Source of the DNA: Parabacteroides hominis
GTDB taxonomy: Bacteria; Bacteroidota; Bacteroidia; Bacteroidales; Tannerellaceae
Direction of reading: 5' to 3'
Assembly: GCF_014287585.1 (NCBI RefSeq)
Contig: NZ_JACOOJ010000020.1
Span: 30,977 to 94,976, forward strand
DNA: 64,000 nucleotides
Shown: positions 3,733-59,091 of the stretch, in pieces
How positions within the stretch are numbered: position 1 is the first letter of the stretch
How the letters are laid out: each line of letters starts with the position of its first letter
Made by a program: the position numbers and the translations under genes
Notes under the pieces: model-generated
Seen by the model: the letters and a program-made list of their open reading frames with translations, nothing else
Databases searched by the model: none
Told to the model about the DNA's origin: nothing

Positions 3733-3920
3733 ATGACAATGAAAAGATATTAACAGAAGGTGGCATGGTCTTTAAGAAAAAAGGTAAAGATGAAAATGCC
3801 GGAGAGAAAAAGATCAAGTTCTCTGACTTCCTGCGTGGTACGCATAAATCAGGCTCGGCAAAGATGAGAGCCGAGTTTAAATATAAAAAAGCCTTGCGTA
3901 ACACTAAAAAGAAAAAATAA
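3729..3920 (+). CDS. Small basic hypothetical protein downstream of folK
   Basis: This is a 63-residue soluble protein with no membrane segment, rich in Lys and ending in a polybasic tail KNTKKKK-type run. Recognisable features are FKKKGKDENAGEKKIKFSDFLRGTH in the middle and an overall positive charge, so nucleic-acid or ribosome binding is possible but unproven. I do not recognise a family. The 4-base overlap with folK and the codon use resembling its neighbours argue that it is a real gene and the last of the uppP-folK operon. Confidence 0.6.
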   Translation: MNDNEKILTEGGMVFKKKGKDENAGEKKIKFSDFLRGTHKSGSAKMRAEFKYKKALRNTKKKK

Positions 3921-3950
3921 TTGTCGATTATCAATTGTCAATTGTCAATT
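3918..3950 (+). repeat. 33-bp direct repeat, copy 1 (ATTGTCAATT-rich)
   Basis: This copy matches 4138-4170 with a single mismatch (TTGTCG here, TTGTCA there). Each copy is internally repetitive, made of CAATTGT/ATTGTCA units, and CAATTG is itself a palindrome. A degenerate third piece, CGTCAATTGTAAATTG, lies at about 4094-4110. The copies bracket the metK leader. Confidence 0.85.
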
Positions 3951-3964
3951 GTTTTGTACTTTTG
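3935..3964 (+). promoter_or_regulatory. Probable metK promoter (TTG -33, TACTTTTG -7)
   Basis: The box TACTTTTG at 3957-3964 fits the Bacteroides TAnnTTTG consensus exactly, and a TTG at 3935-3937 lies 19 bases upstream. The TTG is part of the first copy of the ATTGTCA repeat. The predicted start of transcription is about 3970-3972, only a few bases before the riboswitch-like pseudoknot, leaving a leader of about 210 bases before metK. Confidence 0.6.
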
Positions 3965-3976
3965 TGTCCGAATTGA

Positions 3977-4029
3977 TGTGGATAGATTTGTATTGCTTGC
4001 AACCACAGGAAAAAATGCTAAAAACAAGC
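3977..4029 (+). promoter_or_regulatory. Candidate SAM-II-type riboswitch (H-type pseudoknot) in the metK leader
   Basis: P1 is formed by TGTGG (3977-3981) with CCACA (4003-4007). Inside its loop, GCTT (3995-3998) pairs with AAGC (4026-4029) and GCA (3999-4001) with TGC (4016-4018), giving a classic pseudoknot. The first loop contains GATTT and the last strand reads AAAAATGCTAAAAA, resembling the SAM-II consensus features GAUUU and AAAUGnnGCUAAAAA. The gene downstream is SAM synthetase, a natural target for SAM feedback, and the element sits at the predicted 5' end of the transcript. Unusual for SAM-II, about 150 bases separate it from the start codon. The related SAM-V class is an alternative. 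Confidence 0.55.
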
Positions 4030-4137
4030 CTTTATATTACTGCCGTCCGGCAAAGCAAATTTCCCTCGTCAATCCATTAATTTGATTTATTAACCGTCAA
4101 TTGTAAATTGCCTGTTGACTTTATCGGGTTTATCCTT

Positions 4138-4170
4138 TAATTGTCAATTATCAATTGTCAATTGTCAATT
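4138..4170 (+). repeat. 33-bp direct repeat, copy 2, abutting metK
   Basis: Identical to 3918-3950 except at one base. It ends 9 bases before the metK ATG, so it occupies the translation initiation region. It happens to be open in the metK frame, which extends the frame to a TTG at 4141 and could mislead start calling. Confidence 0.85.
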
Positions 4171-4179
4171 CAAAAAACG

Positions 4180-5466
4180 ATGAGTTATTTATTCACCTCC
4201 GAATCGGTGTCCGAAGGGCACCCCGATAAAGTAGCCGATCAGATATCGGATGCTTTGCTGGATGAGTTCCTGGCTTATGACAAGAACTCTAAAGTTGCTT
4301 GCGAAACCCTTGTAACAACCGGACAGGTTGTCTTGGCTGGAGAAGTAAAATCAAGTGCTTACGTGGATGTACAGGATGTAGCCCGTAACGTGATCGAAAA
4401 AATTGGTTATACGAAAAGCGAATACCAGTTTGAAGCGAAATCATGTGGCGTGTTCTCTTCTATCCATGAACAGAGTGGCGACATTAACCGTGGTGTTGAA
4501 CGCGAAGACCCTTATAACCAAGGTGCGGGCGACCAGGGTATGATGTTCGGTTATGCTACTAATGAAACAGAAAACTACATGCCTCTGGCATTAGATCTTT
4601 CACACAGCTTGTTGTGGGAGCTTGCCGAGATACGCAAGAATGAAAACGACCTGATGCCTTACCTCCGTCCGGATGCTAAGAGCCAGGTGACGATTGAATA
4701 TGATGACAACGGTAAACCGTTGCGCATCGATACGATTGTTGTTTCTACACAACATGATGAATTTATCACTGCAAAAGGTATCACACAGGAAGAAGCGGAT
4801 CTGGCTATGCAGAAAAAGATCGCTGAAGATGTGAAGAGCATACTGATCCCGCGTGTAAAGGCTCAGTATCCGGCTCATGTTCAGGCTTTGTTCAATGATG
4901 ATATCATCTATCACGTGAACCCGACCGGAAAGTTCGTGATCGGTGGTCCTCACGGCGATACTGGTCTGACGGGCCGTAAGATCATTGTTGATACATACGG
5001 AGGTAAAGGTGCTCACGGTGGTGGTGCATTCTCAGGAAAAGATCCTTCGAAGGTAGACCGTTCTGCTGCATATGCAGCTCGCCATATCGCGAAGAATCTG
5101 GTTGCTGCCGGTGTGGCTGATGAAATGCTGGTACAGGTATCTTATGCAATCGGTGTTGCTAAACCGATGAATATCTTCGTCAATACATTCGGCCGTGCTA
5201 ACGTGAAAATGACGGATGGAGAGATCGCAGAAAAGATCTGGAACCTGTTCGATATGCGTCCGAAAGCAATCGAGGAACGTCTGAAACTGCGTAACCCGAT
5301 CTATCTGGAAACAGCATCTTACGGCCATATGGGACGTAAGCCGCAGGTTGTGACGAAGACATTTACATCCCGTTACAATCCGGAGCCGACTATCTGTGAA
5401 GTGGAACTGTTTACCTGGGAAAAACTGGATTACGTCGATAAGGTAAAAGAAGCATTCGGTCTTTAA
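4180..5466 (+). CDS. metK: S-adenosylmethionine synthetase MetK
   Basis: MetK makes SAM from methionine and ATP in the cytoplasm. The 428-residue protein shows the N-terminal [17 protein letters not shown] with the ATP-binding histidine, the [12 protein letters not shown] hexapeptide motif near residue 113, and the glycine-rich phosphate loop [21 protein letters not shown] chose ATG 4180 (MSYLFTSES) because the family starts there and the upstream frame only translates the repeat. It stands alone between a leader with a SAM-II-like pseudoknot and a strong terminator. Confidence 0.97.
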
Positions 5467-59014: not shown

Positions 59015-59091
59015 TTGAATCCGGAATTGTGAATAGATTACACAAAGACCTTATCCTCTCTGTAGTCGCGGCTGCACGGTTCCAGATTCAG
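59015..59091 (+). ncRNA. Candidate ribosomal-protein leader in front of rpsD
   Basis: A long-range stem is formed by GAATCCGGAATTGTG (59017-59031) and CACGGTTCCAGATTC (59075-59089): 5, 4 and 3 paired bases interrupted by C-A and TT-GG mismatches. The enclosed 43 bases include a pyrimidine-rich stretch and GTCGCGGCTGC. The position directly before rpsD fits a leader bound by S4; a S4-Bacteroidia leader motif has been proposed from comparative work, and this may be an example of it. Confidence 0.5.

Follow-up and report, generated by a model that had tools for sequence, protein, structure and literature searches.

The leader of metK in the window (the whole 64-kb stretch of DNA analyzed here) carries a SAM-II aptamer of the long-loop family, RF01726, followed by a strand, the anti-aptamer, that can pair with the 5′ half of the aptamer. 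By computation, the leader has two mutually exclusive folds, and the anti-aptamer recurs in Bacteroidales and Flavobacteriales. The RF01726 aptamer is already known; the addition made here is the anti-aptamer platform. On balance, we favor the view that the leader is a SAM-II riboswitch whose two-state expression platform lowers metK when SAM is plentiful and that, across the order, it does so by masking the start codon. We infer the OFF polarity from the fact that metK makes SAM. The features of the leader are collected in Table 1.

Table 1. Features of the metK leader and their positions in the window
Feature	Position	Strand	Basis
Promoter-like box TACTTTTG	3958-3965	+	Sequence; ends 6 bases before the aptamer
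SAM-II long-loop aptamer	3972-4031	+	RF01726, 56.0 bits, full model 1-60
Aptamer 5′ half, 5′ strand of the alternative hairpin	3972-3997	+	22 predicted pairs with 4049-4073, minimum-energy fold
P1, outer strands 3977-3981 (UGUGG) and 4003-4007 (CCACA)	3977-4007	+	96.3% of cells paired, 32 leaders
Likely P2, UUG 3993-3995 and CAA 4025-4027	3993-4027	+	70.5% of cells paired, 32 leaders; third pair covaries, 148 loci
Pseudoknot pairs, GCA 3999-4001 and UGC 4016-4018	3999-4018	+	100% of cells paired, invariant, 32 leaders
Small hairpin TGCC-GTCC-GGCA, 3′ arm overlapping the anti-aptamer	4041-4052	+	85.5% of cells paired, 32 leaders, nearly invariant
Anti-aptamer, 3′ strand of the alternative hairpin	4049-4073	+	Minimum-energy fold; 78.6% of cells paired, 32 leaders
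AATTGTC 7-base repeat array, between anti-aptamer and metK	4139-4170	+	Sequence
metK, SAM synthetase	4180-5466	+	TIGR01034, 503.5 bits versus 309.4; ATG at 4180

A SAM-II long-loop aptamer in front of metK

Analyses of the window with Rfam covariance models yielded two matches above cut-off, one of them being RF01726 in the metK leader (gathering score of 44, E = 4.8e-8). The model of classic SAM-II, RF00521, reached 12.2 bits there for a gathering score of 36, and SAM-V was absent from the 8 matches returned up to E = 5 when the 3900-4250 region was searched with covariance models. Other sub-threshold Rfam matches near the leader were discarded, their scores being far under their own cut-offs. 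The gene downstream belongs to methionine/SAM metabolism, as is expected for RF01726. Because the match is to a curated covariance model, and because 151 of the 152 aptamers examined precede metK, the identification of the leader as a SAM-II aptamer is supported, SAM binding itself being predicted. The SAM-II-like riboswitch proposed for this leader in the earlier note is thus upheld, by the RF01726 model rather than by those of RF00521 or SAM-V.

Eighty metK loci were taken from named genomes, the closest being L001 at 93% identity. RF01726 scored above cut-off in 18 of the 20 loci L001 to L020; L009 was matched only by an aptamer model built for the purpose, and L018 was matched by neither. 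In the order to which the genome of L001 belongs, 197 of 295 genomes had an RF01726 match at E = 0.001, 195 of them above cut-off, and in its genus 36 of 38 genomes had a match. The 36 matches of the genus search provided 29 new loci (L195-L223), which together with the window, L001, and L002 make up the alignment of 32 leaders. A larger set of 152 aptamers was placed with a model for which 18 of them had served as input; it comprises the window, the 41 best-scoring of the 80 metK loci (lowest score, 47.4 bits), and 110 matches from the order out of about 200, i.e., ranks 1 to 90 by score and 20 lower ones that were picked by hand and not at random. Of these 152 leaders, 149 are distinct, and 5 are near-duplicates.

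The tests described below used subsets of these leaders. The own-foreign and variable-strand swap tests covered 148 loci after removal of L078 (no strand), L019 (24-base strand), L139 (metH), and L187 (gap of 8); L138, L126, L171, and L184, with gaps over 200, were also dropped from the RNAfold-pair and start-opening tests, leaving 144. The terminator and platform-start pair tests covered 139 leaders with gaps of 60 to 200 bases, and the C-over-G test 115 leaders with gaps of at least 70. A flavobacterial and sphingobacterial set of 21 loci, 14 of which lie outside the 152, includes L045, which is under the RF01726 cut-off.

Three SAM-II metK leaders, L077, L065, and L067, share their contigs with a SAM-I element (RF00162); a 2007 survey (PMC2258182), by contrast, encountered no species having both classes. 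One genome, G087, has two RF01726 copies, L148 before metK and L139 before metH. Leaders L076 and L029 each gave two adjacent matches to our model, but RF01726 spans each as a single aptamer with a long loop, and tandem aptamers were rejected.

The earlier note had remarked on a promoter shortly before the pseudoknot. A promoter-like box is found there in the window, and a TANNTTTG or TANNTTTT box, of the type that we take to be the Bacteroides −7 box, lies at most about 80 bases upstream at 140 of the 152 loci (raw count). Transcription would start just before the aptamer. The single aptamer that does not precede metK lies before metH (L139). The distance to the metK ATG, which had seemed odd, turned out to be ordinary: in the window, the ATG lies 158 bases from the aptamer core (GCUAA), and across the leaders this gap ranges from 8 to 293 bases (median, 82), the value of 8 being a single case, L187, and the next shortest 51.

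The alignment of 32 leaders bore out two of the three stems drawn in the earlier note, TGTGG/CCACA (P1) and GCA/TGC. The outermost P1 pair is UA in 13 leaders and CG in 12, and the P1 and GCA/UGC pairs are mostly invariant in the genus, i.e., conserved and not covarying. The remaining stem, GCTT/AAGC (3995-3998/4026-4029), was rejected as P2, as it is paired in 57.8% of cells, with its C-G pair present in 9 of 32 leaders. Because the complementarity of the near tail, taken at its best energy in any register, was uninformative (p = 0.10 and 0.56; nearest-relative swap, 34:31), P2 was examined pair by pair. When P2 was placed after UGCUAAA in 148 loci, its third pair varied between UA (46) and CG (40) and was paired in 99 loci versus 75 expected (p = 2e-4), and pairs 1, 2, 4, and 5 were not above shuffles. 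P2 is more likely to be UUG/CAA than GCTT/AAGC. An H-type pseudoknot made of P1 and of a P2 formed with the tail after UGCUAAA is found, P2 being weak in the genus. The absence of a model match and of conserved stems, which would have spoken against the proposal, was not observed, except that one stem, GCTT/AAGC, is poorly kept; as for the covariation sought among related leaders, the stems are conserved but mostly invariant, and one P2 pair covaries order-wide.

A downstream strand complementary to the aptamer 5′ half

The suggestion that a second structure may be involved was supported. The region 3972-4074 is predicted to fold at −23.1 kcal/mol into a hairpin of the anti-aptamer with the aptamer 5′ half, versus −7.9 kcal/mol for the nested fold of the aptamer, with pseudoknot and ligand not counted. 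Because the hairpin is far more stable, the choice between the two folds would fall during transcription. The hairpin is paired well beyond the 34 to 56% of cells obtained when its strands were slid, and its covariation score was reached by 0 of 500 shuffles of the 32 leaders; two-sided changes in 5 of its pairs were no excess over the slid versions (4 to 7). In L002, the predicted hairpin is absent. The aptamer 5′ strand can pair with either of two partners but not with both, an arrangement that a switch would be expected to show.

Most leaders of the genus (L195-L223) have a GCC-NNNN-GGC hairpin after the aptamer, found at 4041-4052 in the window. As it is nearly invariant, it was set aside as a switching element; it may be part of the SAM-bound state or a pause hairpin.

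Reading of leaders revealed that a complement of the variable strand, located between GATTT and TTGCAACC, often lies about 10 to 50 bases past the aptamer. The anti-aptamer hypothesis arose from reading part of the same data, and the later tests covered all loci, including those read. Among 40 strand types, strands matched their own complement better than foreign ones (p = 5e-5 by energy and 0.0012 by run length), with p values by run length of 0.49 for coding sequence (CDS), 0.45 for upstream, and 0.15 for reversed controls. We also compared own with swapped combinations in 70 disjoint pairs of nearest relatives, defined by MetK. For the 5′ half, the own combination was favored 57:13 (p = 1.3e-8), with null controls (35:35 and 32:37); without the 5 near-duplicates, the ratio was 55:13 (controls, 31:37 and 32:36). 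For the variable strand, it was favored 53:16 (50:17 deduplicated); the CDS control leaned the same way (42:27, p = 0.035; deduplicated, 40:27, p = 0.08), and the upstream control gave 37:32. Swaps of the 3′ half gave 36:26 (p = 0.14).

RNAfold predicted 12.5 pairs between the 5′ half and downstream sequence versus 7.1 after shuffling, and 124 of 144 leaders were above their own shuffle mean. Many single leaders are only mildly beyond their own shuffles; in the median, a fraction of 0.1 of the shuffles does as well or better. Shared ancestry of the leaders makes Wilcoxon values too small in this test as well as in the platform-start pair and start-opening tests below. In the set of 21 loci, 20 of them flavobacterial and the other sphingobacterial, the duplex averaged −15.0 versus −10.0 for shuffled sequences, with p < 0.05 at 14 of 21 loci (11 of the 14 outside the 152 and 3 of the 7 inside). 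Where P1 is GAGG, UUUCCUC or UUCCUC occurs in the platform of 5 of 6 Flavobacterium leaders (L076, L029, L072, L049, L067, and L065).

Candidate outputs of the platform

In the mechanism that we propose, SAM would bind the nascent aptamer, and P1 and P2 would lock its 5′ half. When SAM is lacking, RNA polymerase would go on to make the anti-aptamer, which would join the 5′ half in an extended hairpin that cannot coexist with P1 and P2. Binding of SAM would leave the anti-aptamer unpaired, and across the order this strand would then cover the metK start codon by pairing and impede an initiation that proceeds without a Shine-Dalgarno (SD) sequence; in the genus of the window, Rho-dependent termination or mRNA decay would be the alternative outputs.

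Masking of a ribosome-binding site, considered in the earlier note, found no backing. SD-like motifs are found ahead of 4 of 151 starts and, in 5 of 151 cases, at the 3′ end of the aptamer, with none in the leader of the window, and SD masking is unlikely to be the output here. Bacteroidetes have been reported to lack SD use (PMC3155529, PMC6847099).

Start-codon masking was evaluated by modeling. Opening the start region costs 6.61 kcal/mol with the aptamer locked versus 4.74 with it free, compared with 5.88 versus 5.32 for shuffled platforms, and this difference was above that of the leader's own shuffle in 108 of 144 leaders. A UCCC in the platform is associated with AUGGG starts (44 of 67 versus 31 of 83; discordant relatives, 18:7). 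The start-platform swap gave 42:29 (p = 0.003; deduplicated, 39:29, p = 0.011), and among its CDS control windows 1 of 7 gave p = 0.02 and the others 0.10 or more. Total start-region pairing was not raised (16.3 versus 16.0), and platform-start pairs surpassed the shuffle mean in just 74 of the 139 leaders. In Prevotella bryantii, weakly structured start regions reportedly depress expression to a much greater degree than they do in E. coli (PMC3155529). Pairing of the freed anti-aptamer over the start codon is, according to these models, the likely output across the order; it is unsupported in the genus of the window, as 36 genus and family leaders showed masking of 0.46 versus 0.19 kcal/mol (p = 0.086), with a change from 3.7 to 4.1 in the window. 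In three leaders, L120, L125, and L129, a strong hairpin rich in G and C (−12.2 to −14.9 kcal/mol) is situated between the aptamer and metK, and their platforms may work differently.

A Rho-dependent mechanism would require no start masking, which fails in the genus. The freed anti-aptamer with its C-rich, G-poor flanks would then form a loading site for Rho that SAM exposes and the SAM-free hairpin hides, and transcription would end upstream of metK or within its early part. In E. coli, Rho is known to be subject to control by a riboswitch (Hollands et al. 2012, cited in PMC10907184). Over the 60 bases that follow the aptamer, C exceeds G in 109 of 115 leaders, as compared with 30 of 74 control regions preceding other ORFs. 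However, such a bias is also predicted by complementarity to the G-rich 5′ half, and the C-rich stretch spans only about 40 bases. Judged from composition, Rho termination is a possible but less probable output. The platform might instead act on mRNA stability: the SAM-free fold in the genus pairs the 5′ end of the message (3972-3978/4067-4073) and would protect it, and SAM would free this end and let the message decay. The terminal helix is paired in 81.3% of cells of the 32 leaders, with two-sided changes in 4 of its 7 pairs, and a SAM-II element is reported to alter mRNA half-life in Sinorhizobium meliloti, although SAM stabilizes the message there (PMC9373788). We hold this reading to be quite improbable, as it assumes a predicted transcription start site and a helix that was rejected as an order-wide feature (swap, 29:39) and whose 5′ end gave p = 0.09 in the own-foreign test within the genus (15 types).

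The outputs described for SAM-II elsewhere (PMC10907184, PMC2258182, PMC9373788), in which either an SD sequence located in the aptamer tail becomes inaccessible or the RNA folds into an intrinsic terminator, are disfavored to the point of being very improbable, given the scarcity of SD-like motifs and the presence of terminator-like hairpins between aptamer and gene in 7 of 139 leaders, the window not included. The lone case fitting a translational output is L187, in which the metK ATG lies so close to the core that there is no room for an anti-aptamer and that the start itself could be occluded. It is likewise hard to believe that composition alone accounts for the pairing, with a leader poor in G and rich in pyrimidines matching the purine-rich strand of the aptamer by chance, and that nothing past the aptamer matters. 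The mild excess of single leaders over their shuffles would agree with this, but swaps between nearest relatives, which preserve composition, still favor the own combination (57:13; 55:13 deduplicated), and the platforms are enriched in CAATC (65 of 148 versus 16.6 shuffled) and TTTCCC (33 versus 9.8). Across the order, start masking by the freed anti-aptamer is, of the outputs considered, the one that we propose.

Relation to known SAM-II riboswitches and neighboring elements

The RF01726 family, SAM-II with long loops (Weinberg et al. 2010, PMC2864571), has the same aptamer sequence and P1 and is likewise found in Bacteroidetes; the passages of that article on the family give no expression platform, the details being in its supplement, and the anti-aptamer is added here. 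The classic SAM-II or metA element, RF00521 (Corbino et al. 2005, PMC1273637), shares the H-type pseudoknot, the promoter just before P1, and the association with methionine/SAM genes. It is described as including a Bacteroides member, whereas the leader studied here falls short of its model, as noted above. The metX riboswitch, which acts by direct occlusion (PDB 2QWY, PMC10907184), belongs to the same aptamer class; its ribosome-binding site is embedded in P2, in contrast to the leader studied here, which has no SD. Related in layout are the SAM-II elements of S. meliloti metA and metZ (Scheuer et al. 2022, PMC9373788), for which a long leader and predicted alternative folds with and without SAM are likewise described; in metA, the start codon acted upon lies 74 bases past the SD. 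The reported output relies on an SD within the riboswitch for metA and on an intrinsic terminator for metZ, whereas in the leaders studied here terminators are rare and hardly any SD-like motifs occur. In the passages of the open literature covered by our search, we found no description of an anti-aptamer platform for Bacteroidota SAM-II; subscription papers and supplements, including the SAM-II details of Weinberg et al., were outside the scope of that search.

Direct occlusion of the ribosome-binding site is typically illustrated with SAM-II, yet this class often precedes metK in a phylum that reportedly does without SD. We tentatively suggest that Bacteroidota SAM-II elements swapped SD occlusion for a conserved anti-aptamer that unfolds the aptamer 5′ half and that, once released by SAM, masks an SD-less start, which would make for one SD-independent platform common to Bacteroidales and Flavobacteriales. 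If true, such an anti-aptamer would account for the functioning of this aptamer in these bacteria, indicate which strands to mutate, and provide a sensor-platform pair for gut Bacteroidales.

A second AATTGTC array lies at 3919-3952, so that two arrays flank the riboswitch, with 33-base copies that are 97% alike. In the window, CAATTGTCAATTGTCAATT is found at these two arrays only; in relatives, the arrays are degenerate or absent. Recombination between the two would delete the promoter and the aptamer together. Elsewhere in the window, we found an S4-Bacteroidia ribosomal protein leader (RF03139) at 59036-59074, with 43.3 bits versus 34.7.
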